A stretch of 64,000 bases of DNA, from positions 56,394 to 120,393 of the forward strand of contig NZ_QPGR01000006.1 in the NCBI RefSeq assembly GCF_004323845.1, written 5' to 3'. The notes below the pieces were generated by a model, which saw only the letters and a list, made by a program, of their open reading frames with translations, made no database searches and had not been told where the DNA came from. Numbering within the stretch: position 1 is the first letter of the stretch; every line of letters begins with the position of its first letter. The DNA is from Campylobacter novaezeelandiae (lineage in GTDB: Bacteria; Campylobacterota; Campylobacteria; Campylobacterales; Campylobacteraceae). Made by a program: the position numbers and the translations under genes. Below are positions 12,462 through 43,351 of this stretch, in pieces.

Positions 12462-14096
12462 TTATAATTTATTCTTTTTAAATTCTCTCTTCAACCTAGG
12501 CACATCTTTGAATATAAATTTGATATACCCCCCCCCATACCAATTTTTATTAGCCTGTATTAAAGCCTCTCCTAATTTATAAGTAAAACATTCTTTTTCT
12601 TTTAAGGCTTCATTGTAATCAGGATAAGTTTCTAAACTAGGCAAGGCTAAGTTTGGATCTTGTTTTATTTTTTCTTCATAGATTTTTTGTTCAAATTTAT
12701 GTTTATCTTTTATATAAGATAATACATAAGGCATTCTTATGAAGCCAAATATACTTTTTGAATTTTCTATTAAAGCTTGTCCTAATTTATAAGATAAGTG
12801 ATTATGAATTCTTGCTTTTGCTGAATTTGGATTTATCATAGTAAGTTTAGGCATTATTGCATTTATTTTTATACCCATTTGTTTGGCTAGTTTTTTATTT
12901 TGTAATTTTTTAAAGATTAAATCTTGCTCTAGGTTTGCTAATTCTAAGTTCGTTTTTTGGTTAATTTTTAAATTTTGCTGACTTAGATCAGAAATTTGTT
13001 TTTGCAAAGGAGCTAATTTTCTTGAATCCATTATGGCGCAATACTCATCAATAATTTCTTTATAAAATTTTATAGGTGGGATTAAATGATTAAAATCATA
13101 TTCTTTTTTTATTGTTATTTTTTCATAAGCTAGAATTTCAAAATTTGTAGTTTGAGAATAAGGAATATAATCATTTTTAACAAGAAAAAAACTAATAAAA
13201 TTCATACTAGAATTTAAAAGTGGTTTAAATTTCATATTAGGTTTTATGCTTAAATCATCAAAGTGAGTAAAATTAGTAAAACCAAGATGAGAAAAGTTAA
13301 TTCCCCATTCTATCTCTTTTTTATTTATAAATTTAAATTTGCCTTTAGAATCCCAAAAATGAATTCCTATAATTTTATAATCATTATATTTTTGATCAAT
13401 TTCTAATTCATCATTGTGATCTATAAATAAACATTCTTCTTTAAAACTTGAATTTTCTTTGGTGAAGCACTCTTTAGAAAGTTTTTTACTAAAATATTTA
13501 GCTTTAATAATTTTAAAAGTAGGATTATCATAAGAAAAATTAATTTTTTTAGGTTTTAAAAACTTATGAAAATTATTTGCTATATTTTCTCCTAAAGTTC
13601 TCATAACAAAATCAAAATCATGAGCACCATCTCTTAGGGCTTGAAAAGTATAAAGTAAATTGGTTTTGATATAAAATTCTTGTAAATCTATAACATTGAA
13701 ACCATATTTATTAGCTAGTTTTTTATGAAAATTATTAATACTTTTTATACATACTTCATTCATCCAAGTTTGAGGAGTGGGAGTTATAAAAACTATAATT
13801 TTTTTATTTAAATGAAAAAGCTCTTTATAAAACCAATCAATAATTTCAAAAGAATATTTTAAACTGTTTATATTATTATACATTCCTATATCATGGACAT
13901 TGGAAGAAGTTATGATTAAATCAGAATTTTTTAAAATTTCATAATTCCTTTTTAATTCATAAAGGTTTTGTAAAGCTGAGGTTCCTCCAAGAGCAAGATT
14001 ACTTACTTTAAATCCTTTTTTTCTTAAACCTACTTGAATGCCATTAACCATTACAAAAGCACTGCCACCAAGTAAAACTATATTTTTATTTAACAT
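12462..14096 (-). CDS. SGNH-hydrolase-like protein with two-part SYKLG tail; contains G9
   Basis: About 544 aa. The N-terminal 200 residues look like an SGNH/GDSL esterase or acetyltransferase fold: LLGGSAF (block I), LALGGTSALQN, and DGAHD (DxxH block V). The middle is unrecognised, with a coiled coil around 380-430 (SDLSQQNLKINQKTNLELAN). The last 120 residues are the two-part tail (HNHLSYKLGQALIE ... CFTYKLGEALIQANKNW) found on five other proteins here. A run of nine G (C on the plus strand, 12528-12536) encodes the three Gly of NWYGGGYIK; loss or gain of one base changes only the last 20 or so residues. Start: ATG 14096 preferred over GTG 14108. It may modify capsule sugars; that is inference. 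Confidence 0.75.
   Translation of the reverse strand: MLNKNIVLLGGSAFVMVNGIQVGLRKKGFKVSNLALGGTSALQNLYELKRNYEILKNSDLIITSSNVHDIGMYNNINSLKYSFEIIDWFYKELFHLNKKIIVFITPTPQTWMNEVCIKSINNFHKKLANKYGFNVIDLQEFYIKTNLLYTFQALRDGAHDFDFVMRTLGENIANNFHKFLKPKKINFSYDNPTFKIIKAKYFSKKLSKECFTKENSSFKEECLFIDHNDELEIDQKYNDYKIIGIHFWDSKGKFKFINKKEIEWGINFSHLGFTNFTHFDDLSIKPNMKFKPLLNSSMNFISFFLVKNDYIPYSQTTNFEILAYEKITIKKEYDFNHLIPPIKFYKEIIDEYCAIMDSRKLAPLQKQISDLSQQNLKINQKTNLELANLEQDLIFKKLQNKKLAKQMGIKINAIMPKLTMINPNSAKARIHNHLSYKLGQALIENSKSIFGFIRMPYVLSYIKDKHKFEQKIYEEKIKQDPNLALPSLETYPDYNEALKEKECFTYKLGEALIQANKNWYGGGYIKFIFKDVPRLKREFKKNKL
12528..12536 (-). repeat. G9 tract in the SGNH gene tail
   Basis: Nine C on the plus strand (G on the coding strand), codons TAT-GGG-GGG-GGG-TAT. 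A candidate slipped-strand site affecting only the C-terminus. Confidence 0.85.
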
Positions 14097-14113
14097 TAAA
14101 TTTCTCACTAATC

Positions 14114-14157
14114 TTTGATATAATTTTGGCGTCGGATTATATCAAAAAAAAAAAAAA
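14114..14157. promoter_or_regulatory. Face-to-face promoters in an inverted repeat, with A14 tract
   Basis: TTTGATATAAT (14114-14124) and ATTATATCAAA (14136-14146) form a perfect 11-bp inverted repeat, giving a GATATAAT extended -10 on each strand: plus for rimO (ATG 14172), minus for the SGNH gene (ATG 14096). A run of 14 A (14144-14157) is a T tract upstream of the minus-strand -10, where Campylobacter promoters are T-rich. Confidence 0.6.
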
Positions 14158-14171
14158 TAAAAGTAGGGAAA

Positions 14172-15488
14172 ATGCCAAAACTTTATCTTTTATCTTTGGG
14201 TTGTAATAAAAATTTAGTTGATAGTGAAATTATGCTAGGTCGTTTAAGTGAGTATGAAATTTGTGATGAACCAAATAAAGCAGATGTGATTATTGTTAAT
14301 ACTTGTGGGTTTATTGAAAGTGCTAAAAAAGAAAGTATAGAAGCGATTTTAAATTTACATGAACAAAGAAAGAAAAATTCCCTTTTAGTAGTTACAGGTT
14401 GTTTGATGCAACGTTACCGCGAAGAGCTTATGAAAGAACTTCCAGAAGTTGATCTTTTTACAGGCGTAGGTGATTATGAAAGAATTGATGAGATGATACT
14501 TAAAAAAACAAATTTATTTTCAAGTTCAACTTATTTGCAAAGTGAAAATTCTAAACGCATTATCACAGGATCAAATTCCCATGCTTTCATAAAAATCGCC
14601 GAAGGATGTAATCAAAATTGTTCTTTTTGTGCTATCCCAACTTTTAAGGGCAAACTAAAATCACGTGAAATTTCAAGCATAGTAAAAGAAGTTAAAGATT
14701 TAGTAAAAAAAGGTTACAAGGATTTTTCTTTTATCGCTCAGGATACAAGCTCGTATTTATATGATAAAGGGCAAAAAGATGGACTTATTTATTTGATCGA
14801 AGAGATAGAAAAGATAGAAGGCATAAAAGCAGCTAGAATTTTATATCTTTATCCTACAAGTGTGAGTAAAACTTTAATACAACGCATTATTGACTCTAAG
14901 ATTTTTGTGAATTATTTTGATATGCCTTTGCAACATATTAGTGATAATATGCTTAAAGTTATGAGAAGAGGAATGAATTCTGAAAAACTTAAAGAAATAT
15001 TAACTTTAATGAGAAATGCTAAAGATAGCTTTTTAAGAACAGGTTTTATTGTAGGACATCCTGGCGAAAGTGATGAAGATTTTAATGAGCTTTGTGAATT
15101 TGTAAAAGATTTTGATTTTGATAGAATAAGTGTTTTTGCTTATTCTAAAGAAGAGGATACTGCTGCTTTTAATATGGAGCAAATTCCTTTTAAAACTATA
15201 AATTCAAGACTTAAAAAAATAGAAAAAATTGTAGATAAAGTGATAAATGAGAGTTTTAAAAAAGAAGTAGGTAAGAGACGCTTAGTGGTTTGCACAGGAG
15301 AAAGTAGCGAGGGTGAATTTTTTATTGCTGGAAAAGATTTAAGATGGGATAGGGAAATTGATGGAGAAATCCTTATCAATGAAAGCGAATGTGGAAATTT
15401 AGAAATGGGACAAATTTATGAGTGTGAAATTTTACAAAGCGTTGATAAAAAACTTATTGCAAAAGCTTTGAAAAAATATGCAGATTAA
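14172..15488 (+). CDS. rimO: Ribosomal protein S12 methylthiotransferase RimO
   Basis: 438 aa. UPF0004 domain at the start ([33 protein letters not shown] with three cluster Cys), radical SAM core with CNQNCSFC (Cys 146, 150, 153), and a C-terminal TRAM domain. It adds a methylthio group to an Asp of ribosomal protein S12. NLVDSE and S12-type features separate it from MiaB. It overlaps tilS by 11 nt, as in C. jejuni (Cj1454c-Cj1453c). Confidence 0.95.
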
Positions 15489-16449
15489 AGAGGAAATTTT
15501 AGAATTTTTAAGAAAAGGTAAAAATTTATTAGCTTTTTCTTATGGAAGTGATTCTACCGCACTTTTTTATTTTTTGATGCAAGAAAAAATTGAATTTGAT
15601 CTTGCTATGATCAATTATAAAACAAGAAAAAATAGCGATTTAGAAGAAGATGAAGCTAAAAAACTTGCTTTTAAATTTAATAAACAAATTTTTACTATTT
15701 CAGCTCCTTTTTTTAAAAATAATTTCGAGCAAAATGCAAGAGCTTTTCGTTATGATTTTTTTGAAAAGATTTGTTTTAAATATCATTATAATAATCTCAT
15801 TTTAGCTCATCATTTAAACGATCAACTAGAATGGTTTTTAATGCAGCTTTCGCGTGGAGCAGGGGTGATAGAGCTTTTAGGAATGAGTGAATTTGAAAAA
15901 TGTAAAAATTATAATCTCTTACGCCCTTTACTCTTTACTTCTAAAAATAAAATTTTAAGCTTTCTAAATAAAGAAAATATCAAATACTTTAATGATGAAA
16001 GCAATGAAAATGAAAAATATTTTAGGAATTATATTAGAAAGCATTTTTCAAATGATTTTGTAAAGGAATTTGAAGAAGGTTTAAAAAAAAGTTTTAAATA
16101 TATTCAAAAAGATAAAGAAAAACTTTTTGATATAGAAAAAATAAAAGAATTTAAAGATCTTTTAATTTGCCCAAGAGATGAAGGCTATATTGCAAAGGCT
16201 GTAAAAATTCAAGGAATTGTTTTAAGTGCAGCCCAAAGAAAAGAGGCTTTAAAGGGTGATTGTATTTTAGGTGGAAAAATAGGTGTGGTTTATAAAGATA
16301 AAAGTGCTATTGTATTTAAGCACGAAATTTGTGAAAAATTACCTAAAAAATTTAAAGAAGAATGTAGAATTTTTAAAATTCCAAGGCTTTTAAGAGCTTA
16401 TTTATATAATCATCATATAAGCCCTTCAGATTTTATTTTGCAATTTTAA
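15478..16449 (+). CDS. tilS: tRNA(Ile)-lysidine synthase TilS
   Basis: 323 aa. The N-terminal PP-loop ATPase reads [13 protein letters not shown] (a variant of SGGxDS), followed by [19 protein letters not shown]. TilS changes C34 of the AUA-reading tRNA(Ile) to lysidine, so it is essential. It is shorter than the E. coli enzyme, lacking most of the C-terminal domain, which is usual in this phylum. Its 3' end overlaps the convergent EI24 gene by 24 nt. Confidence 0.93.
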
Positions 16450-17825: not shown

Positions 17826-17847
17826 AATTTTCTTTCTTAAATTTTTA

Positions 17848-17892: not shown

Positions 17893-19290
17893 ATGCAAAA
17901 AGAGTTAATTTTAGCCTCAAGAGATGATGGGTTAGGAGAAAGATTAAGAGCTATTTTGAATGCACTTTATATTGCTAAGCGTTTGAATTTTGATTTTGGT
18001 TTTATATGGCACCCTTTAAATGCTAGTGAAACTGAAGTAGCTAAAAATAAATTAGCTCCTGTTGTTGTTCCTTGTGTAGACGAAATTTTTTCTAAAGAAT
18101 TTATACAAAAGTATTCTTATAATGGTATTTTTGAAAATCGTATGGATGAATTTGGCAAATTTAAGAGAAAAAGCATAAATTCTTTAAAAGATACAAAAGT
18201 TTTAAATTTCCCAATTCACGCTACACAAAAGCGTCTTGATACAATTTTTAATGATTTAGATACTAAAGAATATAAATTAAATTTGATTAAAATCTGGCAA
18301 GAGCTTGATTTTGCTCCTAAAATAAAAGAAATTTTAAAAGAAGCTGAAGAAAAAATTATTAATTTAAAGAAAAATATTGATAATAAGCAGCTTTGTTCTT
18401 TGCATATAAGAGTAGGAGATGCTATTTTTTTAAATAAATTTCAAAAACAAATTATAAGACCTAATATTTTTGCAAGAGCTCTTAATTTTACACTTGCTAT
18501 AGAAATTATTAATAAAGAATTAAAAAATAATAATGCTATTATAGTTTTTAGTGATGATTTATCTTTGCTTGAATGTTTTAAAAATGAACTTCCAAATTTA
18601 TTAAATCTTAATGAAATACAAAAAAAGAAATTATTTTTTTCTATAGATTTATGTGATAAAAAAGATTATGTTTATAAGGCTTTATATGAAAATGCTTTAA
18701 TGTCTTGGTCTGATAAAATTTATTATACCAAAACATCAGGTTATGCAAATTTAGCTGTTTTAACTGGTAAATATAAAGAAGATATTGGAATTTATGAGTA
18801 TTTTAGTGATGAAGAGCAATATAAAATTATTCAAAAATATTTAGATCGAATCAATGTTCATTCTTTTCATAAATCTTTTATTTGTTTTCATGGCTTTAGA
18901 CTTGCTAAAATTTTAAAAAAATCTTTAGAAGAGATAAAATTTTGGCTTAAAAAAGCCCATTTTTATAATCCAAATAACGATGCCTTTCATCTTTTATGGA
19001 TAGAAATTCTATTTAAAGAAAAGCAAATTAAAGAAGTAAATGAGTGTATTGAAAATTTACTTATGCAAAGAAAAAATGCCTTTTTAGAGACCTTATTTTG
19101 TGGCAATACAAGATATTATTGTGATTTTATATTTGATTATTTTTTTAAGTATGCTAAAAAAGGTTTTGAAAATATTGATTACATTGCAAGCTCAATTGCT
19201 TTGAATTTAGGATGCAATGAACTTTTTGAATTTTATTTTAAAGAAATTAAAGATAAATTTCAAACTCCTTTTAATTTTGAAAAAAAATAG
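17893..19290 (+). CDS. Fucosyltransferase-like capsule glycosyltransferase, cut by an A8 frameshift
   Basis: 465 aa. The start motif RDDGLGERLRAILNALYIA and SLHIRVGDA (about 169-177) recall the GLGNRLR and HxRxGD motifs of the GT11/GT23-type GDP-fucose transferases; FSDDLSLLECF follows. Donor and acceptor are unknown. It is a paralogue of the protein at 41621 (RDEGFGERMRAFLNALYIS, AVHVRAGDG). That one continues into the SYKLG tail, while this one stops right after a run of eight A. One more A would join it to the frame at 19305, giving a 586-aa protein like the 576-aa paralogue. Broken, phase-variable, or rescued by slippage; I cannot tell which. Confidence 0.75.
   Translation: MQKELILASRDDGLGERLRAILNALYIAKRLNFDFGFIWHPLNASETEVAKNKLAPVVVPCVDEIFSKEFIQKYSYNGIFENRMDEFGKFKRKSINSLKDTKVLNFPIHATQKRLDTIFNDLDTKEYKLNLIKIWQELDFAPKIKEILKEAEEKIINLKKNIDNKQLCSLHIRVGDAIFLNKFQKQIIRPNIFARALNFTLAIEIINKELKNNNAIIVFSDDLSLLECFKNELPNLLNLNEIQKKKLFFSIDLCDKKDYVYKALYENALMSWSDKIYYTKTSGYANLAVLTGKYKEDIGIYEYFSDEEQYKIIQKYLDRINVHSFHKSFICFHGFRLAKILKKSLEEIKFWLKKAHFYNPNNDAFHLLWIEILFKEKQIKEVNECIENLLMQRKNAFLETLFCGNTRYYCDFIFDYFFKYAKKGFENIDYIASSIALNLGCNELFEFYFKEIKDKFQTPFNFEKK
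19280..19287 (+). repeat. A8 slippage tract at the frame junction
   Basis: GAAAAAAAATAG: in the present length the reading frame meets TAG; with A9 it reads EKKIGAEFLMKNHLNYKLG, matching the join seen in the paralogue at 41621. Confidence 0.7.
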
Positions 19291-19304
19291 GTGCTGAGTT
19301 TTTG

Positions 19305-19652
19305 ATGAAAAATCATTTAAACTATAAATTAGGTGAGGCTATGGTAAAAAATTCTTTTACTTTGAAAACTTTACTTAAAAATCCTTTGGATTTATTGATA
19401 ATATATTTACAGTTTAAAAAAGATAAATTTAAGCATATTAGATCTTTATCTTCTTATAAAGATCATGAAAAGGCTTTAAAATTTGTAAAAGATCATCTTT
19501 ATTATAAAATAGGTTATGCTTTAATCAAGGCTCAAAAAACTTGGCATAAGGGTGGATATTTTATTTTTATAAAAGAGCTTAAAAAAATTGCGAAAGAATA
19601 TAAATATAAAAAAGAGGAACGAAAGAATTTAAAGAAAATTTATAATATTTAA
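19305..19652 (+). CDS. Detached two-part SYKLG tail
   Basis: 115 aa consisting only of the tail module: NHLNYKLGEAMVKNS, a hydrophobic/basic stretch, then HLYYKIGYALIKAQKTWHKGGY and a Lys-rich end. Its ATG has no good ribosome site, and the same frame extends upstream to base 19281 with residues (IGAEF) that match the linker of the 41621 protein. So it is best read as the C-terminal part of the preceding gene in another frame. It might be translated alone by reinitiation, since the upstream stop is only 14 nt away. Confidence 0.6.
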   Translation: MKNHLNYKLGEAMVKNSFTLKTLLKNPLDLLIIYLQFKKDKFKHIRSLSSYKDHEKALKFVKDHLYYKIGYALIKAQKTWHKGGYFIFIKELKKIAKEYKYKKEERKNLKKIYNI

Positions 19653-31162: not shown

Positions 31163-31557
31163 AATGAATTATATTCCCAAAGTTTCTATTATTGTTCCTT
31201 CTTTAAATTCTATAGCTTATATTAAAGAATGTATAGACAGTATATTAAATCAAACTTTAAAAGATATAGAAATTCTTTGTATTGATGCCAACTCAACTGA
31301 TGGAACTTTAGAATTATTGAAAGACTATGAAAAGCAAGATAAAAGACTAAAAGTAATAATATCAGATAAAAAAAGTTATGGTTATCAAATGAATCTTGGC
31401 ATAAAAGAGGCCAAAGGAGAATATTTAGGAATAGTTGAAAGTGATGATTATATTAAAGAAAATATGTATGAAAGACTCTATGAAGTAGCTAAAGCTCAAG
31501 ATTTAGAAGTCGTAAAAAGTGATTATTATGTGGTAAAAGATGGAGAGAAAATTTATA
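31152..31557 (+). repeat. 406-bp perfect direct repeat, copy A
   Basis: Identical, base for base, to 35172-35577: ribosome site and first 130 or so codons of two GT2 genes. The copies are 4,020 bp apart. Shorter patches of identity follow further into both genes. Confidence 0.93.
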
Positions 31558-33437
31558 CAAGATTAACTCATTTATATTATTTATATAATAAATTTCTTTG
31601 TTCTGATAATAAATTAATATTCCATTCTCAAAGCATTAATCAAATAGGAATTTATAGCCTAGATTTTATAAAGAAATATCAAATTAAACTTAATGAATCT
31701 TTGGGTGCTTCATATCAAGATAATGGACTATGGTTTCAAATTTACACTCAAGTTAATAAAATGTATTTTTTAAATGAAGCATTTTATATGCTAAGAAGAG
31801 ATAATCCAAATTCTTCTATTTATAGCAAAGAAAAAGTTTATGCTATATGTGAGGAATATGATTATATACGTAACTTTTTAAATGAAAAACCAGAGTTGAA
31901 TTCATTTTTACCTTATGCGACTTTTTTTCGTTACAGAAACTATATATTTACATTAGATAGAATTGATGATAAATATAAATTAGATTTTATAAAAAGGTTT
32001 GCAAAAGATTTTAAAGAAATATTAGAAAAAAATGAGTTAGATTTTACGCTTTTTGAAGAAAGTGATATTCAAAAAATTAAATTTATTATTAAAGATCCGC
32101 AAGCATATTACTTAAATTTAAATAATGTATTTGCAGAAAATACCATTTATTTTGGTGCAGCACAAAGGATTAAATCTCAACTTTCTTATAGAATTGGAAG
32201 CTTCCTTTTAAGTAAAAGTTTAACTAAGATTGTTAAAATACCTTATGAAGTGGTAAAATATAAATTTGAAAAAAAAGTTTATGATACTTTAGTAAAATTT
32301 TATCCCCATTTAAAATTACCTCGACTTGAAGAGTATTTAGATTACAATGAAGCATTAAAAACCAAAGAGCATTTAAGTTATAGGCTTGGAAATGCACTTA
32401 TAAAAAATCCATTTACTTTTATATTTAAAATAAAAAAAATTTATCGTCAATATAAAAATAGATTTAATTTTTTAAATATTAGATTAGAAGATAATGAATT
32501 TTTATTACAGAGACATAGAGATATTTTTGGATATACGCCTGATTTCAAAAATCCAAAAACTTTTAATGAAAAGTTAATTTATAGAATCTTATATGATAGA
32601 AGTCCTATATATTCTTTCCTTGCTGATAAACTTAAAATGCGAATTTATGTTAATGAGATTTTAAATAGAGAAAAGAGTAATTATAGTATTTTAGATAAGG
32701 ATTCGATTTTATTTAAAAAAATCGATGAATTACAAGAAGAACTTTTTAAAACAAATTCTTGTAAATATCTACCAAAACTTTATGCAATATATAAAGATTT
32801 ATATGAAATTGATTTTTCGAAATTGCCAAATTCTTTTGTTCTAAAAACGAATCATGATTGCGGTGGTTATGTAATAGTAGAGAATAAGCAAAAATTTTTA
32901 AGAGATACCAAGGTTTTTTCAGAAGCTATGGAGAAGTTAAAAAAACATTTAAATTGGAATTATTATGATGTGTTTAGAGAATGGCACTATAAAAATATAG
33001 AGCCAAGAATTTTTGCTGAAGAACTCTTGTTAGCAGAAAATAAAAAACCTGCAGATACTTATAAATTTCATATTTTTGATAAAAGGAATATGTTAAATAA
33101 TTATATACAAGTAACAACTGATAGGTTTGATGATTATCAAAGAGTTATATATGATTACAATTGGAAGTTGGCTCCTTTTAATTTTATGTATGAGTTAGAA
33201 AATGTAAATGAAATTGCTAAACCAGAATTATTTGATTTAATGATGGATATCTCTTTAAAGCTTTCTTATCCTTTTGATTACGTGCGAGTTGACTTATATC
33301 AACCCAATAAGCAGATTTATATCGGAGAGCTTACTTTTACACATGGTGCAGCAGGAGAAAAACTTGTTCCAAACAAATGGGATAAAAAGCTTGGTGATTT
33401 ATGGAAATTGAAAAGGTTGAGCGATGCTACCAAATAA
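31164..33437 (+). CDS. GT2 glycosyltransferase fused to SYKLG tail and TupA-like ATP-grasp domain
   Basis: 757 aa, three parts. 1-320: GT2 (VSIIVPSLNSIAYIKECID, DANSTDGTLELL, GIVESDDYI). About 330-430: two-part tail (QLSYRIGSFLLS ... HLSYRLGNALIKNPF). About 440-757: TupA-like ATP-grasp (FKNPKTFNEKLIYRI, FVLKTNHDCGGYVIV, GELTFTHGAAGE). Position fits Cj1438, whose C-terminal part is, as I recall, the enzyme that joins an amino alcohol to glucuronate as an amide. The sister gene at 35184 has the same parts but is split by a G tract. The stop overlaps the aminotransferase start by 14 nt. Confidence 0.85.
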   Translation: MNYIPKVSIIVPSLNSIAYIKECIDSILNQTLKDIEILCIDANSTDGTLELLKDYEKQDKRLKVIISDKKSYGYQMNLGIKEAKGEYLGIVESDDYIKENMYERLYEVAKAQDLEVVKSDYYVVKDGEKIYTRLTHLYYLYNKFLCSDNKLIFHSQSINQIGIYSLDFIKKYQIKLNESLGASYQDNGLWFQIYTQVNKMYFLNEAFYMLRRDNPNSSIYSKEKVYAICEEYDYIRNFLNEKPELNSFLPYATFFRYRNYIFTLDRIDDKYKLDFIKRFAKDFKEILEKNELDFTLFEESDIQKIKFIIKDPQAYYLNLNNVFAENTIYFGAAQRIKSQLSYRIGSFLLSKSLTKIVKIPYEVVKYKFEKKVYDTLVKFYPHLKLPRLEEYLDYNEALKTKEHLSYRLGNALIKNPFTFIFKIKKIYRQYKNRFNFLNIRLEDNEFLLQRHRDIFGYTPDFKNPKTFNEKLIYRILYDRSPIYSFLADKLKMRIYVNEILNREKSNYSILDKDSILFKKIDELQEELFKTNSCKYLPKLYAIYKDLYEIDFSKLPNSFVLKTNHDCGGYVIVENKQKFLRDTKVFSEAMEKLKKHLNWNYYDVFREWHYKNIEPRIFAEELLLAENKKPADTYKFHIFDKRNMLNNYIQVTTDRFDDYQRVIYDYNWKLAPFNFMYELENVNEIAKPELFDLMMDISLKLSYPFDYVRVDLYQPNKQIYIGELTFTHGAAGEKLVPNKWDKKLGDLWKLKRLSDATK

Positions 33438-34545: not shown

Positions 34546-35187
34546 ATGTCTAAAGAAATTTTAGCTTTATTTGATTTTTGCGAAACTATAACAAATTTTC
34601 AAACCCTTGATAAATTTTTACCTTTAGCTGGAAAACATAATCCAAATTATGAATACAATAAAAATTTAGAAAGAAGAAATCAATACAAGAAATTAAATTT
34701 ACCATATCCAAGATATGAGTGGTTAATAGATCTTCCTGTGTCAGTAGCTCAAAGAGTTGCAAAGGAATTTGTATACGATGAGATAATTAAAAATCTTAAT
34801 CAAAACGTGATGGATAGACTTTTTTATCATCAAGATCAAGGACATACTATAGCTATAGTATCTGGAGGACTTGAACTTTATATAAAAGAGTTTGCTAAGA
34901 TTTATAATATTAAAAATATTATTGCAGTATCTTTAGAAGAAAAATACACAAAGCTTACTGGCGATATAGCAGGTATTCATACCATGCAAGAAAGAAAACT
35001 ATATAAACTTTCTTATATGTTGAATTTAAATAATTATGATTTAAAGAATTCTTATGCATATAGCGACTGTGTTAGTGATATACCTCTTTTATCATTAGTT
35101 GGAAATCCTTATGTCATTGAATGTGGAAAAGATTTAACATGGGCTAAGATTTTAAATTTTAATATTATTTATAAAGGACTGAAATGA
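34546..35187 (+). CDS. HAD-IB phosphatase (Cj1435-like)
   Basis: 213 aa. Motif I is LFDFCETIT, with the nucleophile Asp but Cys where the usual second Asp of DxDGT stands. Motif II is AIVSGG, and motif III YSDCVSDIPLL. A matching position in C. jejuni (Cj1435) is a phosphatase that removes phosphate from the amino-alcohol head group; the FCET variant may be normal for this subgroup. The stop overlaps the next ATG by 4 nt and sits in the 406-bp repeat. Confidence 0.78.
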   Translation: MSKEILALFDFCETITNFQTLDKFLPLAGKHNPNYEYNKNLERRNQYKKLNLPYPRYEWLIDLPVSVAQRVAKEFVYDEIIKNLNQNVMDRLFYHQDQGHTIAIVSGGLELYIKEFAKIYNIKNIIAVSLEEKYTKLTGDIAGIHTMQERKLYKLSYMLNLNNYDLKNSYAYSDCVSDIPLLSLVGNPYVIECGKDLTWAKILNFNIIYKGLK

Positions 35188-35577
35188 ATTATATTCCCAA
35201 AGTTTCTATTATTGTTCCTTCTTTAAATTCTATAGCTTATATTAAAGAATGTATAGACAGTATATTAAATCAAACTTTAAAAGATATAGAAATTCTTTGT
35301 ATTGATGCCAACTCAACTGATGGAACTTTAGAATTATTGAAAGACTATGAAAAGCAAGATAAAAGACTAAAAGTAATAATATCAGATAAAAAAAGTTATG
35401 GTTATCAAATGAATCTTGGCATAAAAGAGGCCAAAGGAGAATATTTAGGAATAGTTGAAAGTGATGATTATATTAAAGAAAATATGTATGAAAGACTCTA
35501 TGAAGTAGCTAAAGCTCAAGATTTAGAAGTCGTAAAAAGTGATTATTATGTGGTAAAAGATGGAGAGAAAATTTATA
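35172..35577 (+). repeat. 406-bp perfect direct repeat, copy B
   Basis: See 31152-31557. Recombination between the copies would delete 4,020 bp, removing the rest of the GT2/ATP-grasp gene, the aminotransferase and the phosphatase, and leave one intact GT2 gene. Confidence 0.93.
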
Positions 35578-36548
35578 ATAATGTAGTTAATTTAGCTTGC
35601 AAAGATCTTTATAATAGTGTAACTAATTGGCAAAAAGACTTTAGAATTTTTTTAGCAACTGATGGAATAAATCAAATCGGTATTTACCGATTGGATTTAT
35701 TAAGAACAAATCAAATTAAACTTAATGAATCTTTGGGTGCTTCATATCAAGATAATGGACTATGGTTTCAAATTTTTTCTTTTGCAAAGAGTATATATTT
35801 TTTAAATGAAGCATTTTATATGCTAAGAAGAGATAATCCAAATTCTTCTGTTTATAGCAAAGAAAAAGTTTATGCTATATGTGAGGAATATGATTATATA
35901 CGTAACTTTTTAAGAAAATATCCTTTTATAGAAAAAAGTATAGCTCCTGTTTGTGCTTTACATCGTTATGGAAACTATATATGGACTTTAGATAGAATTG
36001 ATGATAAATATAAATTAGATTTTATAAAAAGGTTTGCAAAAGATTTTAAAGAAATATTAGAAAATAAAGAAGTTGATCATAGGATATTTAGTTTGCATAA
36101 AATTGAAGTTATAAATTATATCATTAAGAATCCTAAGATGTTTTATTATGGCTTAATAAACTTACAATCACGGTTTAAAAATCATTTAGTATATAAAATT
36201 GGAGACTGTTATTTTAAGGCTAATACTTTTATAAAGCGTTTAAAATTTCCTTTTTCATTGCTCAAAATTTGCCTTTGGCATAATTTTGAGCAAAAAATTT
36301 ATAAAGGTTTTATTTCTTTTAGACCTGATTTGAAACTTCCTTCTCTTAGTCTGTATAACGAATTTTTAGATCTTATTAAAATACGAGATGAAGCTACTTA
36401 TCAAATAGGACGCATTATTTTTAAATCTTTAAAACAATGGTATAAAGGAAAACTTTTTATTTTACCTTTTGTTCTTTATAAAAATTCTACAAAAAATAAT
36501 AAAAAAGAGAATATAGGGGGGGGGGATATGAATATTATAAAAAGCTAA
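35184..36548 (+). CDS. GT2 glycosyltransferase with SYKLG tail, ending at a G10 switch
   Basis: 454 aa. The first 130 residues are identical to the gene at 31164; the middle differs with patches of identity (LNESLGASYQDNGLWFQI); the tail module (HLVYKIGDCYFK ... ATYQIGRIIFKSLKQWYKG) follows. A run of ten G (36516-36525) then leads to an early stop in the present length. With 8 or 11 G the frame continues through YEYYKKLKSSQYPK into the ATP-grasp gene at 36596, giving a 739-aa protein built like its 757-aa sister. So this is probably one phase-variable gene of which only the transferase half is now made. Confidence 0.8.
   Translation: MNYIPKVSIIVPSLNSIAYIKECIDSILNQTLKDIEILCIDANSTDGTLELLKDYEKQDKRLKVIISDKKSYGYQMNLGIKEAKGEYLGIVESDDYIKENMYERLYEVAKAQDLEVVKSDYYVVKDGEKIYNNVVNLACKDLYNSVTNWQKDFRIFLATDGINQIGIYRLDLLRTNQIKLNESLGASYQDNGLWFQIFSFAKSIYFLNEAFYMLRRDNPNSSVYSKEKVYAICEEYDYIRNFLRKYPFIEKSIAPVCALHRYGNYIWTLDRIDDKYKLDFIKRFAKDFKEILENKEVDHRIFSLHKIEVINYIIKNPKMFYYGLINLQSRFKNHLVYKIGDCYFKANTFIKRLKFPFSLLKICLWHNFEQKIYKGFISFRPDLKLPSLSLYNEFLDLIKIRDEATYQIGRIIFKSLKQWYKGKLFILPFVLYKNSTKNNKKENIGGGDMNIIKS
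36516..36525 (+). repeat. G10 tract joining the GT2 and ATP-grasp frames
   Basis: G10: reads GGGDMNIIKS then stops. G9: stops at once (GGG-ATA-TGA). G8 or G11: in frame with the ATP-grasp domain. Confidence 0.9.
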
Positions 36549-36595
36549 AATCCTCGCAATATCCAAAAGAGTTAAAAAAATGGTTTAAAAGTGTT

Positions 36596-37402
36596 ATGTG
36601 TTATGAACTTGATTTAAAAAATCCAAAAACTTTAAATGAAAAAATTCAATGGCTTAAAATTTATGATTCTACCTCTTTAAAAACTAAATATGCAGATAAA
36701 TATTTAGTAAGAAAGCATATAAAAGAAACAATAGGAGAAAAATATCTTATTCCATTAATAGCGGTTTATGATAAAGCAGATGATATAAATTTTGATATTT
36801 TGCCTGATCAATTTGTTATAAAATGCAATCATGGATCTGGTTATGTGATTATTGTAAGAAATAAAGAAGAATTAAATAAAGAAGAAACTATCCAAAAGCT
36901 TAATTCTTGGATGAATATTAATTACGCTTTTACTTATGGCTTAGAACTTCATTATAAAAATATAAAGCCAAAAATTTTAATTGAAGAATACATAGAAAAT
37001 GAAAAACAAGAAAAAATAAATGATTTAGCAAAAAATAGCGGTCTTTATAGTTACTCTTTTTATTGTTTTAACTATAAAGTTAATTTTATATATATTTATA
37101 AAGGTGCAGGGAATGAGATAAAAGCAAATTGTTATGATATAAATTTAAATCTTTTGCCTTTTCGTATTAAAAGAGAGAATTTAGAAAAAGATTATAACCC
37201 TCCAAAAGAAGAAATTAAAAAAATGATAAAACTTAGCGAAAAACTTGCAAAGGATTTTATCTTTGTTAGAGTGGATTGGTTTTTGCTTAATAATAAAGAT
37301 ATTAAATTTAGTGAATTAACTTTTACTCCTTTTTCTGGGGTTATAGAATTCATTCCAAAAGAATGGGATTTAAAATTAGGAGAAGTATTAAAACTTAACT
37401 AA
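36596..37402 (+). CDS. TupA-like ATP-grasp domain (3' half of a phase-variable fusion)
   Basis: 268 aa from the ATG at 36596: LKNPKTLNEKIQWLKIYDS, FVIKCNHGSGYVIIV, HYKNIKPKILIEEYI, FIFVRVDWF and FSELTFTPFSGV, an ATP-grasp ligase like the C-terminal part of the 31164 protein. The ATG falls inside the domain: homologous residues (YPKELKKWFKSV) lie upstream in the same open frame back to the G tract, and no ribosome site is seen. Likely made only as a fusion with the transferase when the tract is 8 or 11 G. Probable ATP-dependent amide or peptide-like bond former; substrate unknown. Confidence 0.75.
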   Translation: MCYELDLKNPKTLNEKIQWLKIYDSTSLKTKYADKYLVRKHIKETIGEKYLIPLIAVYDKADDINFDILPDQFVIKCNHGSGYVIIVRNKEELNKEETIQKLNSWMNINYAFTYGLELHYKNIKPKILIEEYIENEKQEKINDLAKNSGLYSYSFYCFNYKVNFIYIYKGAGNEIKANCYDINLNLLPFRIKRENLEKDYNPPKEEIKKMIKLSEKLAKDFIFVRVDWFLLNNKDIKFSELTFTPFSGVIEFIPKEWDLKLGEVLKLN

Positions 37403-37428: not shown

Positions 37429-37460
37429 ATATAATCTATCTTTTTAAAGGTAGATTATAT
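37429..37460. promoter_or_regulatory. Inverted repeat holding the promoter and start of the radical SAM gene
   Basis: ATATAATCTA (37429-37438) and TAGATTATAT (37451-37460) flank a spacer with ribosome site AAAGG (37446-37450). The left arm carries TATAAT; the right arm runs into the ATG at 37459. An operator or mirrored -10 box is possible. Confidence 0.45.
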
Positions 37461-38505
37461 GCAAAGATTTAAACAATGGTTTCTTTCTATTATAAAAAAT
37501 TATAAGAGACAAGAGATAATAAGAGAACGCGCAAACCAACTTGAAACTCGCGCAAACCAACTTGAAACTCGCGCAAACCAACTTGAAACTCGCGCAAACC
37601 AACTTGAAACTCGCGCAAACCAACTTGAAACTCGCGCAAACCAACTTGAAACTCGCGCAAACCAAGTATTAGACTTTCATTTAAGAAAGATTACCCCACA
37701 AGCATTTTTAGAAGTTGTTGAAATTCATTTAGCAGAGCATTGTAATTTAAATTGTTTTGGTTGTAATCACTTTTCGCAACTTGCTAATGAGGAATTTCCA
37801 GATATTTTAAAGTTTGAAGAAGATATGAAAACCCTCGCTAGAATTAGTGAAGGTTTTATTAAAACCTTTAGATTGATGGGAGGAGAGCCTCTTTTAAATC
37901 CACAATGTAAAGAATTTATTGAAATTACAAGAAAATATTTTCCAAAAAGTGCCATTTGGCTTGTAACTAATGGAATTTTACTTAATAAACAAAAGGAAGA
38001 TTTTTGGCTTTCGTGTCAGAAAAATAACGTTGAAATTAGGCCTACAAAATATCCTCTTAATATCAAATGGGAGGAAATTAAAAATTTATGTCAAAAATAT
38101 CAAGTGTCCTTGGTATTTTTTAATGATGAAAAAACTATAAAAACTTCTTGGAAATTTAGTTTAGATTCTTTAGGAAAATGTGACAATTATAATAGTTTTA
38201 TAAATTGCTCAATGGCGAATCATTGTATTCAATTTAAAGATGGTAAATTATTTACTTGTCCAATTTCTGCTCATATTGAACATTTTAATAAAAAATTTGT
38301 AGGAAAAGATGAAGTAAAAACAATGTTTAAGATTTCTAAATTCGATTATATTGATATTTATGGAGCTAAAAATTATCAAGAAATTTTAACTTTTTTAGCT
38401 AAACCTATACCATTTTGTAGATATTGTAAAGTTTTAGAGTGGAAGGAAGTTGGAATTTGGAGAAAAAGTTCTAAAAATATAAATGAATATTTAATGGATA
38501 GGTAA
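37459..38505 (+). CDS. Radical SAM protein with tandem heptad coiled coil
   Basis: 348 aa. The N-terminal 20 residues are basic; six exact copies of RANQLET plus a partial seventh (about 24-69) form a heptad coiled coil. Then a radical SAM core: VEIHLAEHCNLNCFGCNHFS holds CxxxCxxC for the [4Fe-4S] cluster, and MGGEPLLNP is typical. A Cys-rich C-terminal part (CSMANHC, LFTCPIS, FCRYC) could bind a second cluster, as in SPASM-type enzymes. Its place inside capsule genes suggests it acts on a sugar or a capsule protein, but the substrate cannot be told. Own promoter likely. Confidence 0.8.
   Translation: MQRFKQWFLSIIKNYKRQEIIRERANQLETRANQLETRANQLETRANQLETRANQLETRANQLETRANQVLDFHLRKITPQAFLEVVEIHLAEHCNLNCFGCNHFSQLANEEFPDILKFEEDMKTLARISEGFIKTFRLMGGEPLLNPQCKEFIEITRKYFPKSAIWLVTNGILLNKQKEDFWLSCQKNNVEIRPTKYPLNIKWEEIKNLCQKYQVSLVFFNDEKTIKTSWKFSLDSLGKCDNYNSFINCSMANHCIQFKDGKLFTCPISAHIEHFNKKFVGKDEVKTMFKISKFDYIDIYGAKNYQEILTFLAKPIPFCRYCKVLEWKEVGIWRKSSKNINEYLMDR
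37528..37665 (+). repeat. 21-bp tandem repeat in the radical SAM gene (6 copies plus 12 bp)
   Basis: Unit CGCGCAAACCAACTTGAAACT, which is 21 bp (written in two parts elsewhere: CGCGCAAACC + AACTTGAAACT); copies 1-6 at 37528-37653, then 12 bp of a seventh. Each copy is 7 codons, so gain or loss keeps the frame and changes coiled-coil length by one heptad. Copies are identical, which implies recent expansion. Confidence 0.95.
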
Positions 38506-38507
38506 AA

Positions 38508-41500
38508 ATGAAAAGAGTTTTATTGATTACACCAGAACTTGAATACACAGGAGCTTTAAATAGTTTTAAAGGAAATTGTAAAGTTTTATTAAATAATGGT
38601 TATTTGGTAGATATTTGGAGTTATGTAGAAGGTCCTTATATAAAAGAATTTGATGAGCTTGGTGTTTATGTTGAAATTATAGATGAAGAAATTATTGATG
38701 AAAATTTTGTTTTTCAAAGAATTTTTAAATATCAATTAGTGATTGCAAATACTATAGTTGTTTATAAGGCTGTTGAATTAATAAATAATCATGTTCCTTT
38801 AGTTTGGTATATTAGAGAGGGTGAAAATTTGCCTGATTTTTTTTGGAAAAAAGGAAGAAAAGAAGCTTTAGAAAATGCTAAAAAACTTTATGTTGTGAGT
38901 GAGTATGCTAAGGATTTTATAGTAAAAAATTATAATAAAAATGTTGAAGTTTTGCATGATTATGTTGATGATGTTTTTGATGAATTTAAAGATATTAAAA
39001 AGGATAATTCAAAATTAAAATTTTTAACACTTGGCACCATAGAAAAAAGGAAAGGTTACGATGTTTTGCTTGATGCTTTCATTGCTTTGCCTAAAGAGAT
39101 AAGAGAAAAATGTGAACTTCATTTTGCTGGAAGGTTTTGGGATGGCGGTAAAGAGATTTATCACAAAGTTATAAATCAGGCTAAAAAATATCCTAATATT
39201 TTTTATCATAAAGAATTAAGAGATAGACAAAAAATACATACTTTAATTGCAAATTGCGATGTAGTGGTTGTTCCATCAAGGGATGAATCTTGCTCTCTTG
39301 TTGCTTTAGAGGGTGCTATGATGGCAAAACCTTTAATACTTACTCAAAATATCGGAGCTAAATATATTTTAAATGAAAATAATGGATATTTGATTAAAAC
39401 AGGAGATGTTATAGCTTTAAAAGAAGCGTTTATTCAAGCATTTAATGAAAAAGATAGCCTCTATGAAAAGGGTAAAAAAGCAAGAGAGAGTTATCTCCAA
39501 ACTTCTACATATGAAATTTATGAAAAAAATATTTTAAAAATGATAAAAGATAATATATGTGAAAATTCTTATCTGTATAAAATTAAGCAAAATGATTACT
39601 CTCTTTTTTCCTTCGATGTTTTTGATACTTTAATTTCAAGAAAATTTGCTAAACCTGAAGCAGTATTTTTAGTTATGAAGGAAAAATTACAAAAAACGAA
39701 TTTTCCTAAAATTCTAGTAAAAAATTTTGAAGAAATAAGAATTAAAACTGAGCAATATTTTTATGAATATATTTGTAATACTAAATCTCAAGATGTGAAT
39801 TTTGAGGAAATTTATAATTTAATAGCATTAAATTTTTCTCTAAACGAAGAACAAAAACAATTTTTAATGAATTTAGAAATTCAAATAGAGTCTGAATGTT
39901 TATATCCTATAGATAAAAATATAAATTTAATCAAGTTTTTATTGAAAGAAAATAAAAGAGTTATTTTAATTTCTGATATGTATTTTAATTCTAATACAAT
40001 TAGACAATTTTTAATACAATTTGATGATATTTTTAAAGATATTCCAATTTATGTTTCTTCGGAATATAAAAGGAAAAAAAATAATGGTAAATTATTTAAA
40101 GTAGTATTTGCAAAAGAAAAAATTAGCCCTAAAAAATGGTTGCATTTTGGAGATAATTTTAATGCAGACATTTTGCAAGCTAGAAAATTAGGCATACAAA
40201 CGTATTTTTATTTTAATAATCTATTGCCTTATGAAGAGTATGCTCTGAATTTAGAACCTAATCATTTAGCCTTACAAGAAATAATTTCTATTGCTAAGAA
40301 ATTAAGAACACAAAGTGCTTTTAGTAATTTAGAGGAAATAGGAGCTTGTTTTGGAGCACCTATGCTTCTTCCTTATATATTTTGGGTATTAAAAAAAGCA
40401 GTTATAAATAAGGTTGAAGTTTTATACTTTATTGCAAGAGATGGTTTTGTTTTGCAAAAAATTGCTGATATTATCATAGATAAAGAGAATTTAAATATAC
40501 AAACAAAATATTTATATGGTTCAAGAGAATCTTTTAGAGAGCCTTTTGAAAACAATAATAAAGAAAAGATCGAATTAATTTTTAAATACTTAAATCAAGA
40601 ATTAAATTTAGATAAAAAATTTGCATTTGTAGAGCTTTGCGGTACAGGAAAAACACTTGATTATATTGTTTCATTTGTAGAAGATATGCCAAATTATAAG
40701 GATAAAATTTTTGGAAGTTTTTATCTTTTTAGATCCAAATTAGCAAAGACTAAAGCCCCTTCTTTTTTTATGATTCCTTTGAATCAGGTGGGTTCTTTTT
40801 ATATAGAACTTTTTGCAAGATCTTTGGAAGGACAGGTGATCGGTTTTAAGGAGGAAAATGAATATATAAAACCTATTTGTGATGATTTAGAAGGTAATGC
40901 TTTAAAAGCATTTGGTTATGAAGATTATATTAATGGGGTTATTAAATATACAGAATATTTTACAAGCTTTAAAGATTATCAAAATTTATTAACTTCTATG
41001 AAATTAACTAAAATTTATCTTGTTTATATTAATAGTAATACTATTGATAAAAAAATAGTTGAAATTTTGGGTAGCACCCCTTTCTTGCTTGATGGAGTTT
41101 CAAGTGAAAGAACTATTTTCGCTCCTAGAATAACTAATGAAAATACCAAAAATAAAACTGCTAGTTTTTTATGGTCCGTTTTAAGAAGTGAAAATAAAAT
41201 CAAGATGCAGTATAGCTTAGAAAATAATTTAAATATAATAGGTGCTGTAAGTATTATAAAATCACATCTTTCTTATAAATTGGGCAATGCTATTTTATTA
41301 AATGTCAAAAAACCTTTGGGTATTATAAAATTAATTTTTATTATACCCGTACTTATTATTTCACATAAGGTTGAAAGAAAAATTTATGCTAAAGAACTTG
41401 ATAAAAAAATGGATCTTGCCATTTATAAGGATTACAATGAAGCTATTTGGGTTAAAAATTTTTTTTCTTATCGACTTGGAGAAACTATATTAAAAACATT

Positions 41501-41591
41501 TAGAAAGCACAAAATTTTAGCTATTTTTGTTCTGCCTAGTAGTATAATTAAGCTTTATAAAACTAAAATAAAAAAGGATAAAAATGAATAA
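38508..41591 (+). CDS. GT4 glycosyltransferase - HAD-like (COG5610-type) - SYKLG tail fusion
   Basis: 1027 aa. 1-350: GT-B GT4 (LGTIEKRKGYDVLLDAF, VVVPSRDESCSLVALEGAM). About 360-580: HAD-like domain (SFDVFDTLISRKF, LISDMYFNS, HFGDNFNADILQAR). About 590-880: the partner domain seen with it in COG5610-type proteins (YFIARDGFVLQKIAD, YLYGSRESFREPF, FVELCGTGKT). About 900-1027: the SYKLG tail (HLSYKLGNAILL ... FFSYRLGETILKTF). The HAD part could be a hydrolase or a structural domain. A large multi-enzyme capsule protein; the sugar is unknown. The end carries the ribosome site AAGGA for a start at 41584. Confidence 0.82.
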   Translation: MKRVLLITPELEYTGALNSFKGNCKVLLNNGYLVDIWSYVEGPYIKEFDELGVYVEIIDEEIIDENFVFQRIFKYQLVIANTIVVYKAVELINNHVPLVWYIREGENLPDFFWKKGRKEALENAKKLYVVSEYAKDFIVKNYNKNVEVLHDYVDDVFDEFKDIKKDNSKLKFLTLGTIEKRKGYDVLLDAFIALPKEIREKCELHFAGRFWDGGKEIYHKVINQAKKYPNIFYHKELRDRQKIHTLIANCDVVVVPSRDESCSLVALEGAMMAKPLILTQNIGAKYILNENNGYLIKTGDVIALKEAFIQAFNEKDSLYEKGKKARESYLQTSTYEIYEKNILKMIKDNICENSYLYKIKQNDYSLFSFDVFDTLISRKFAKPEAVFLVMKEKLQKTNFPKILVKNFEEIRIKTEQYFYEYICNTKSQDVNFEEIYNLIALNFSLNEEQKQFLMNLEIQIESECLYPIDKNINLIKFLLKENKRVILISDMYFNSNTIRQFLIQFDDIFKDIPIYVSSEYKRKKNNGKLFKVVFAKEKISPKKWLHFGDNFNADILQARKLGIQTYFYFNNLLPYEEYALNLEPNHLALQEIISIAKKLRTQSAFSNLEEIGACFGAPMLLPYIFWVLKKAVINKVEVLYFIARDGFVLQKIADIIIDKENLNIQTKYLYGSRESFREPFENNNKEKIELIFKYLNQELNLDKKFAFVELCGTGKTLDYIVSFVEDMPNYKDKIFGSFYLFRSKLAKTKAPSFFMIPLNQVGSFYIELFARSLEGQVIGFKEENEYIKPICDDLEGNALKAFGYEDYINGVIKYTEYFTSFKDYQNLLTSMKLTKIYLVYINSNTIDKKIVEILGSTPFLLDGVSSERTIFAPRITNENTKNKTASFLWSVLRSENKIKMQYSLENNLNIIGAVSIIKSHLSYKLGNAILLNVKKPLGIIKLIFIIPVLIISHKVERKIYAKELDKKMDLAIYKDYNEAIWVKNFFSYRLGETILKTFRKHKILAIFVLPSSIIKLYKTKIKKDKNE

Positions 41592-41608
41592 TAACAATCT
41601 CTTTTATC

Positions 41609-41620
41609 GGGGGGGGGGGG
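41609..41620 (+). repeat. G12 tract between a good start codon and the fucosyltransferase-like gene
   Basis: Deduced length: C at 41608, ATG at 41621. The ATG at 41584, with AAGGA upstream (41575-41579), is out of frame at G12 and in frame at G11 or G14. Confidence 0.8.
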
Positions 41621-43351
41621 ATGAAAAAACCTTTAATTATTGCAGGAAGGGATGAGGGTTTTGGCGAGAGAATGAGAGCTTTTTTAAATGCTCTTTATAT
41701 CTCAAAAAGATTTAATTTGGAATTTGGCTTCGTTTGGCGTGATATTATTGATGCTAACAATGTTTTAGATGATAAAGTAATGATCCCTTATGCAAATCTT
41801 CCAACTAAAGAATTTTTATTTAGTAAAGAATTTATTGAAAAATATCATAAATCTAATATGACTTATGTTTATACTACGCCTGTATTTTGGAGTTTATATA
41901 AAAAAAGTATCAATAGACTTTTAGAAGAACCTTATGAATATGATTGGGGTTGGTATTCAACTTATGATGATTTATCTTTATTTTTTAATGATGTAAAAGA
42001 AGATGAGTATAGACAAGCTTTAAGTTTATGTTGGAAAGAGATAGGATTTTCTGACTCAGTAAAAAAAGTTTTTGATCAAGTTGAAGAAATCGTTAAAGAT
42101 TTAGGAGATTTTATAGCCGTGCATGTTAGAGCTGGAGATGGTATATATCTTAAAAATTTAAGGGATATTACTTGGGCTATAAGATACAAATGCGTATCTT
42201 ATGCTTTTGCTATTGATTTAAGTTTGAAATTTTTAAGAGAGGGTAAGAAAGTTTTACTTTTTAGCGATGATTTTAATTTATTAGACACGCTTAAAAAATA
42301 TATCAAAGGAAATATTGATTGTAAAGAAAATCTTTTAATCGTTTTTGATTTGATAAAAGGTCTATGCAAATATGAGCAAATTATATTTGAAATGTTTTTA
42401 ATGTCAAAAGCTAAAGAAATATTTGCTTCAGGAACAACTGGGTTTGCAAGGTGTGCAAGTTTTATAGGTGGAAATTTTTTAACTGATATTTATCGGTTTT
42501 TTTCAATCAATGAGCAATATGAAACTATTTCAAAATATATAGAGATTAACGATATTCATCCTTTGCAGAAGTCTTTTAGTTATTTTCATTTATATTTACT
42601 TGCAGATGAACTTAAAATCTCTTTTAAAATCAAGAAGGAATTCCTAGTAAAAGCCTTGGAAAACGATCCTCAAAATACAAACTCTAAGATCTTTTTAATT
42701 AACCTTCTTTTAAAACATCAATATTATGACGAGGCAAATGAGCAATTAAAAATTTATCTTAAAAATGATGAGTTTTTACATGTATTGCTTGATAATCATT
42801 TTAATCCAAATTTGCCAAGTGAAATATTTTTAAACTACTTAAAAAAAGATATTTTGAATTATCCTTTTATAGCTAAGGTAGCTTTAATGATCTTTTATAG
42901 TTTTTTTAATAAAGAAAGTGTAATAAATAAACATTATCAAAATCTAAGAACTATTATTTTGGAACATTTTTATCAAGTATTTTATGAAAGCAAAAAATTA
43001 CAACCAATTGGAGCAGTTAAAATTATCCATAATCATCTATCATATAAACTTGGAAAAGCTATGATAGAGAATTCTAAATCGTTTCTTGGATATATAAGGA
43101 TGCCTTATGTGCTATCTTATATCAAAGAAATGCATAAGCAAGAAAAATTATCGAAGGATTTTCCGCTAGAATACTATTTAGATTATGAACAAGCTTGTAA
43201 AGAAAAAAATAGTTTTACTTATAAGTTGGGCGAAATACTTATAAAAGCTGATAAAAATTGGCATAAGGGAGGATATATCAAGTTATATTTTGATATTAAA
43301 AATTTAAAAAAAAATTTTAGGTTAAAAGATAAATATTTCAAAAAGACGTAA
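41621..43351 (+). CDS. Fucosyltransferase-like glycosyltransferase with SYKLG tail; start controlled by G12
   Basis: 576 aa from ATG 41621. RDEGFGERMRAFLNALYIS and AVHVRAGDG (about 166-174) match the paralogue at 17893 and the HxRxGD pattern of GDP-fucose transferases. About 310-440 is helical and may be TPR-like. 460-576: full tail (HNHLSYKLGKAMIENS ... SFTYKLGEILIKADKNWHKGGY). A start at 41584 (MNNNNLFYRGGG...) has the better ribosome site but is in frame only with 11 or 14 G, so this copy looks phase-off unless the ATG behind the G run is used. Donor and acceptor unknown. Confidence 0.78.
   Translation: MKKPLIIAGRDEGFGERMRAFLNALYISKRFNLEFGFVWRDIIDANNVLDDKVMIPYANLPTKEFLFSKEFIEKYHKSNMTYVYTTPVFWSLYKKSINRLLEEPYEYDWGWYSTYDDLSLFFNDVKEDEYRQALSLCWKEIGFSDSVKKVFDQVEEIVKDLGDFIAVHVRAGDGIYLKNLRDITWAIRYKCVSYAFAIDLSLKFLREGKKVLLFSDDFNLLDTLKKYIKGNIDCKENLLIVFDLIKGLCKYEQIIFEMFLMSKAKEIFASGTTGFARCASFIGGNFLTDIYRFFSINEQYETISKYIEINDIHPLQKSFSYFHLYLLADELKISFKIKKEFLVKALENDPQNTNSKIFLINLLLKHQYYDEANEQLKIYLKNDEFLHVLLDNHFNPNLPSEIFLNYLKKDILNYPFIAKVALMIFYSFFNKESVINKHYQNLRTIILEHFYQVFYESKKLQPIGAVKIIHNHLSYKLGKAMIENSKSFLGYIRMPYVLSYIKEMHKQEKLSKDFPLEYYLDYEQACKEKNSFTYKLGEILIKADKNWHKGGYIKLYFDIKNLKKNFRLKDKYFKKT

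Follow-up and report, generated by a model that had tools for sequence, protein, structure and literature searches.

What does a module of about 110 residues do when it is joined to several otherwise different proteins of one gene region? The question is raised by a stretch of 64,000 nucleotides (nt) of Campylobacter novaezeelandiae (contig NZ_QPGR01000006.1, positions 56,394 to 120,393; hereafter the window), in which an earlier note had described such a module on six proteins. The analysis established one sequence family with a predicted fold, an internal duplication, high positive charge, co-occurrence with KpsC/KpsS, near-identical tail DNA and G-tracts. Because its duplicated helices are conserved and basic, its partners include glycan transferases, it is linked to Kps, it is dispensable for catalysis where tested, and it ends in a lipid-binding-like helix that often has a G-tract just before it, we lean, with some reserve, towards reading the module as a localisation tail for the site of capsule or lipooligosaccharide (LOS) assembly, with a last helix that may be phase-variable.

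Module copies, predicted fold and partner enzymes

Open reading frames (ORFs) of the window are named here by their lower coordinate (Table 1). A search of the whole genome (1,571,819 bases, 59 contigs) with the 41621 tail alone (98 aa) gave nine matches, the query itself included: six in the window and three outside it. The six copies were present where the earlier note had placed them, the other five matching the query at E-values of 1.8e-32 (12462), 1.1e-14 (19302), 8.9e-11 (38508), 3.6e-5 (31164) and 8.3e-5 (35184), and a profile search of the window found no other module-bearing ORF. Each copy carries the two half motifs that had been noticed, 59-70 residues apart by coordinates. The W(H/Y)KGGY motif given with them is not general: it is absent from 31164 and 38508 and altered in 35184 and 12462. 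The tail had been said to end or sit inside its proteins, and in 31164 it sits inside, flanked by a GT2 and a TupA-type ATP-grasp domain.

The carriers had been called six unrelated proteins. Several catalytic parts do differ, but there are only four catalytic kinds, because two pairs are related: 31164 and 35184 (first 131 residues identical; 65% identity over 425), and 41621 and 17893, the catalytic ORF whose tail is the 19302 piece (31% identity over 436, E 3e-54). Two labels found no backing in Pfam: 'SGNH' for 12462 (GDSL at E 0.083, under the cut-off) and 'fucosyltransferase-like' (no match). Nor does 'capsule proteins' fit every carrier, as some module genes lie outside capsule clusters. 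The three copies outside the window lie in an SGNH-like protein (contig C23), in a CST-I-type sialyltransferase whose adjoining genes are neuB/neuC-like by eye (contig C59), and at one end of contig C45, where the copy has a G-tract and tRNA genes for neighbours. On the last contig (L007, 660-1300), tRNA-like sequences duplicated in near-identical order adjoin the N-terminal module gene and the contig end.

In an alignment of 90 copies (A2), L15, G20 and G90 are invariant, and Y17, P37, D74, Y75 and Y87 are nearly so. The profiles of the two halves align with each other over 45 columns at 98.9% probability; the two-part structure is therefore an internal duplication, in which a hairpin is duplicated. 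An AlphaFold model of the 12462 copy (40 aligned rows; predicted local distance difference test score 92.3, predicted template modelling score 0.83) is all helical, with helices at 7-12, 15-26, 30-60, 75-83, 85-98 and 104-124. As modelled, the module is an independent all-helical domain of two homologous hairpins. Proteins at two loci (L067 and L069) have the second half alone, preceded by a coiled-coil-like stretch, which suggests that one hairpin can be replaced.

The statement that the module is no named domain holds for Pfam, in which no domain covers it in a scan of the window ORFs, but not for NCBIfam. There, the family NF058596 (CJJ1420_fam, O-methyl phosphoramidate (MeOPN) transferase) holds the module as its first ~130 positions and a transferase as the remainder; in a scan of seven window ORFs these positions matched five (E 9.4e-34 to 2.3e-10), with no match to 38508. 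The window proteins fall outside NF058596 itself, for which at least 600 bits over 596 positions are required: the best scored 117.4 bits, over the module part alone. A search of PDB sequences with profiles A1 and A2 (hmmsearch) gave no match to the module.

The net charge of the module is +13.5 +/- 3.3 (n=187, minimum 4), against +0.6 +/- 4.6 in 606 windows of the partner domains. By an amphipathic-plus-charge score of the HeliQuest form (cut-off 1.34), the last helix (residues 105-122) exceeded the cut-off in 66% of 82 copies, compared with 8-14% for the other three helices and 5% of 4616 control 18-mers. A sliding scan of all positions had its highest value, 0.84, at the C-terminal end; position 18 and positions 85-88 gave secondary peaks of 0.46-0.49. 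The last helix thus combines a high hydrophobic moment with net positive charge, as peripheral membrane-binding amphipathic helices do, and by this sequence score it is the most lipid-binding-like stretch of the module.

To sample the partner proteins, module ORFs were collected by hmmsearch from profile A1 and three further rounds, at 120 of 129 regions chosen from at least 170 places listed in surveys of the source genus and family, plus other loci. At least 284 module-bearing ORFs were gathered, at least 218 of which remained after removal of 90% duplicates. The non-redundant sample held at least 224 domain hits: 180 C-terminal, 17 internal, 9 N-terminal and 18 alone, some of these last cut by a locus end. 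The 209 non-module parts of at least 90 aa fell into at least 39 clusters at 60% coverage (19 single, some of them fragments). Among 30 partner representatives, 11 matched Pfam over the cut-off and 16 had no match at E 0.01. The kinds identified were GT2, GT2 with TupA ATP-grasp, GT4, GT8, GT10, GT42/CST-I, CgtA, Sulfotransfer_2, DUF2972 and DUF1919; the same scan of the 30 representatives and seven window ORFs hit no nucleotide-sugar enzyme family.

In the few enzymes tested so far, the module is not needed for catalysis. A CST-I at locus L076 is nearly identical to PDB 2p2v, whose crystallised chain stops at query residue 299, whereas the module occupies 331-441; removal of 145 C-terminal residues is described in PMC10051842. 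Cj1432 without its last 117 residues, a 'four-helix bundle', is active (PMC12096443), and the separate halves of Cj1438 and HS19.11 work without the linker (PMC11800397, PMC13276843). With related catalytic parts active or crystallised without it and an independent fold predicted, the tail appears to be separate from the catalytic parts.

Such helical bundles are already in print, so the tail is of a known kind. Cj1432 (1031 aa, bundle 915-1031) has the same architecture as 38508 of the window (1027 aa, module 917-1021), and HS19.11, with its bundle (385-511) between GT2 and ligase, the same as 31164. The module matches these bundles of ~117-127 aa in placement by Pfam, positions and AlphaFold, which is a likeness of architecture. 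Their function was called unclear, and protein-protein or inner-membrane association was suggested (PMC12096443); a multihelix bundle is stated to occur in many capsule proteins (PMC11924219). The available parts of PMC12096443 and PMC13276843 describe them protein by protein, with no sequence family, duplication, tract or exchange. Further afield, the alpha4HB of Cps3D from Actinobacillus pleuropneumoniae is likewise a terminal helical bundle of a group 2 capsule polymerase, strongly positive and not required for catalysis in vitro, but it is N-terminal, of ~66 residues (10-75) and has short helices (PMC11666461). It was not among the matches of the PDB search or of fold searches, although the presence of the 8QOY N-terminus in the collection is unverified. 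In Haemophilus influenzae, CT-HB of Bcs3, a capsule polymerase with HAD and ribofuranosyltransferase parts, consists of C-terminal amphipathic helices; it was proposed for membrane or protein contact, is dispensable, and its removal raised protein yield fourfold (PMC10299916). By phmmer, 38508 aligned with Bcs3 over the HAD/CriT parts and nowhere else; the crystallised chains may lack the helices. Dispensable bundles of unclear function have thus been reported repeatedly in group 2 capsule polymerases, and the Campylobacter ones now form one countable family with a clear consensus. In the literature searched we did not find the single family, the internal duplication, the probable exchange of tails or the G-tract, which are new here.

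G-tracts and probable exchange of tails

We surveyed 219 copies (score >=40; one genome per species) for runs of at least eight G in the module or the following 60 nt, and found them in 80. The tract lay in half 2 in 67 of 200 C-terminal and one of 10 internal copies, and in half 1 in eight of nine N-terminal copies; in four C-terminal copies it was 3' of the module. Set against the AlphaFold model, both places fall where the chain turns from one helix of a hairpin to the other, so that the half-1 site is the equivalent of the half-2 site. All 70 in-module tracts of long loci have G on the coding strand, at 15-fold the density in the rest of the same loci, and of 121 module ORFs, 44 have a run of at least eight G within their final 120 nt, versus 16 of 527 other ORFs (>=200 aa). 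These are coding G-tracts of at least eight, above background, as expected of phase-variable elements. Read across the half-2 tract, 41 of 68 copies encode the whole last helix and 27 a shortened one; the full form exceeds one third (p 7e-6, simple null). The tract of C-terminal copies ends at a median of 55 nt before the stop codon, so the catalytic domain is untouched. Tracts that by slippage would add or remove the last helix offer a natural experiment.

The tails also appear to have moved between genes. Of 178 copies whose partner could be classified, 114 were nearest to a copy with a different kind of partner. Pairs from one genome with different partners had a mean identity of 53.0%, against 46.9 +/- 0.7 in 500 shuffles, none of which was as high. 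Under a stricter count of 172 copies, which left out fragments and treated partners with any part in common as one kind, the nearest copy had another kind of partner in 105 of 172, or in 54 of 172 with loose single linkage. Under both stricter rules same-genome pairs were more alike (51.8 vs 46.3; 50.0 vs 44.1), and 33 of 242 and 20 of 171 pairs, respectively, reached at least 80% identity. The 14 best same-genome pairs, borne by different enzymes, share aligned DNA blocks of 333-547 bp, six at 100%, which start from ~200 nt before to 13 nt after the module start. Three of the 100% pairs (two genes of L133; L038 and L129; L138 and L090, the loci being placed in one genome by presumption) have unrelated partners by every rule. 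Judged from these alignments, the simplest reading is recent gene conversion between tails.

Distribution, the Kps link and the proposed role of the tail

The module was found in all 50 genomes of the source genus, with 3-23 copies each (E <= 0.01), in 67 of 154 genomes of the family and, in a phylum sample with at most 10 best candidates scored per genome, in 79 of 398 genomes and 10 of 68 genera. Matching coordinates (L043 with G016; L040 with G164) suggest that C. jejuni belongs to the source genus and Helicobacter to family f2 of the phylum sample. A one-pattern scan of named genomes returned 32 loci in Helicobacter, Campylobacter, one Psychrobacter and one deltaproteobacterial metagenome-assembled genome; the proteins of the last two have a coiled-coil-like stretch (by eye) N-terminal to the module. 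Around the Psychrobacter genome, which is itself counted in both cases, the module was found in four of 293 genomes of the order (two partial and weak) and one of 369 of the class.

Based on searches for PF05159 (KpsC/KpsS) in the same 154 family genomes, 64 had both module and KpsC/KpsS, three the module only, 11 kps only and 76 neither (Fisher p 1e-27); that is, KpsC/KpsS was present in 64 of 67 module-positive and 11 of 87 module-negative genomes. These tests ignore shared descent except for the split by genus: without the source genus the four counts, in the same order, were 15, 2, 11 and 76 (p 1.7e-9), and within genus g2 they were 6, 1, 1 and 8 (p 0.009). Of the three module-only genomes, one is 88% complete (G040), one has a weak match (G099, 5.6e-4) and one has a KpsE-like gene beside the module gene (G061). 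At locus L189 (3495-5850), in a genome without a KpsC/S match, a GT8-like module gene adjoins a KpsE-like gene. In family f2, all 15 kps-positive genomes had the module. Module-tailed sulfotransferase-like genes were found in two kps-negative f2 genomes (L223, L224, L232); cysD/cysN-like genes (by eye) lie 3' of those at L223 and L224, and the tails at L223 and L232 contain G-rich stretches. Among the matches listed for 30 genomes of few contigs, 72 of 100 copies were within 75 kb of KpsC/S and 28 were elsewhere.

According to the localisation reading, the module would be a cytosolic, lysine-rich tail whose two homologous hairpins form an autonomous bundle. The enzymes to which it is fused (glycosyltransferases, sulfotransferases, MeOPN-type transferases and an ATP-grasp amide ligase) would work on surface glycans that are still being extended on a membrane anchor. 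Through this tail the enzymes may be directed to where capsule or LOS is assembled at the inner membrane; contact would most likely be made by the final helix, basic and amphipathic, lying against the lipid surface. Slippage in the G-tract, present in about one third of C-terminal copies, would switch that helix in or out with the catalytic domain left whole, and recombination of the shared tail DNA within a genome may let new catalytic domains gain the tail and keep the tails alike. That cells thereby vary the anchoring of glycan enzymes (its place, or whether it occurs at all), rather than their production or catalysis, with the tail spread by gene conversion among scattered genes, we suggest as a tentative possibility. 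One family with such tracts opens to direct test the question of what keeps cytosolic capsule enzymes at the site of assembly, and carriage of the module could help to single out orphan genes that act on capsule or LOS.

Several observations weigh against this interpretation. Of 25 kps-positive genomes from five other families, 24 yielded no module in a search that scored up to 10 candidates per genome, so Kps assembly does not need it. As 16 of the 30 partner representatives are without a Pfam match, their action on a polymer is assumed. Even without the bundle, three domain constructs of Cj1432 stayed insoluble (PMC12096443), and the bundle is therefore not the sole source of insolubility. 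Finally, for Cj0170 of strain NCTC 11168, which has a tract at the gene end, the shorter product is the functional one (PMC6321876); a G-tract at a gene end is thus no guarantee that the longer form is the active one.

The main rival is that the bundle binds a fixed protein partner of the assembly machinery (KpsC/S, KpsE, KpsT or another tail) and not lipid, holding the enzymes together. Its co-occurrence with KpsC/S and the closeness of most listed copies to these genes agree with docking, as does the strong conservation of L15, Y17, G20, P37, D74, Y75, Y87 and G90, which goes beyond a simple amphipathic helix; the four-helix bundle of Cps3D was called a motif known for protein interactions (PMC11666461). 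A partner strictly bound to Kps is spoken against by eight of 23 module-positive f2 genomes, which have no KpsC/S match (two or three of these module matches, G308 and G407 among them, being weak), and by the sulfotransferase-like module genes beside cysD/cysN-like genes in two, and overall we regard protein docking as unlikely. The earlier note had proposed that the tail does something common, such as membrane or KpsMT docking. A shared, non-catalytic role agrees with catalytic parts that work or crystallise without the module, with the co-occurrence and with the lipid-binding-like last helix. The kps-negative genomes with the module, and the kps-positive ones in which none was found, weigh against a strictly Kps-bound dock.

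High positive charge, and Pfam-matched partners that are mostly glycan transferases, would also suit a basic bundle that grips the anionic growing chain (poly-Kdo or an acidic capsule) and aids processivity. We consider such polymer binding improbable: Cps3D without its positively charged alpha4HB keeps its acceptor use and product profile (PMC11666461), and the last helix of the module is amphipathic besides being charged. The tail might even lack a biochemical role and be kept as a recombination cassette, whose common DNA and tracts would favour exchange between genes. The long DNA blocks shared by tails of different enzymes in one genome, six of the best 14 at 100%, and the many copies closest to one with another kind of partner are what a cassette would leave. 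Conserved residues across divergent copies, the confident fold and the excess of full last helices point to selection on the protein, and make this account very improbable.

Further features of the window

Table 1. Module copies and associated G-tracts in the window
Feature	Position	Strand	Basis
Module, C-terminus of SGNH-like protein (ORF 12462-14108)	12477..12809	-	profile search
Run of 9 G within the 12462 module, turn before last helix; frame open through it	12528..12536	-	
Module piece (TTG ORF 19302-19652), frame differs from catalytic ORF 17893-19290	19305..19604	+	
Module inside GT2-module-TupA ATP-grasp protein (ORF 31164-33437)	32169..32456	+	Pfam + profile search
Module ending GT2 protein (ORF 35184-36548)	36174..36503	+	Pfam + profile search
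Run of 10 G shortly 3' of the 35184 module, before separate ORF 36596-37402	36516..36525	+	
Module, C-terminus of GT4-HAD-ribofuranosyltransferase-like protein (ORF 38508-41591)	41256..41570	+	Pfam + profile search
Module, C-terminus of fucosyltransferase-like protein (ORF 41621-43351)	43025..43321	+	profile search

The window contains eleven separate tracts of at least eight G (30 overlapping matches vs 0.12 expected by shuffling), and one of 12 G lies directly 5' of the ATG of the 41621 gene. In the GT2 pair, 31164-33437 is one protein, whereas in 35184-37402 the module and an ATP-grasp-like part are in separate ORFs with a G-tract between them; by eye, the second of these ORFs resembles the ATP-grasp part of 31164. 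The junction between 17893-19290 and the 19302 piece carries a run of A. A relative of this gene at another locus (L066, 2702-4300) is broken in several frames, so the lineage of the gene is taken to be decaying. A radical-SAM-like ORF (labelled by eye; 37459-38505, + strand) opens with 6.6 perfect 21-nt repeats (37528-37665), which encode a heptad and probably a coiled coil of variable length.

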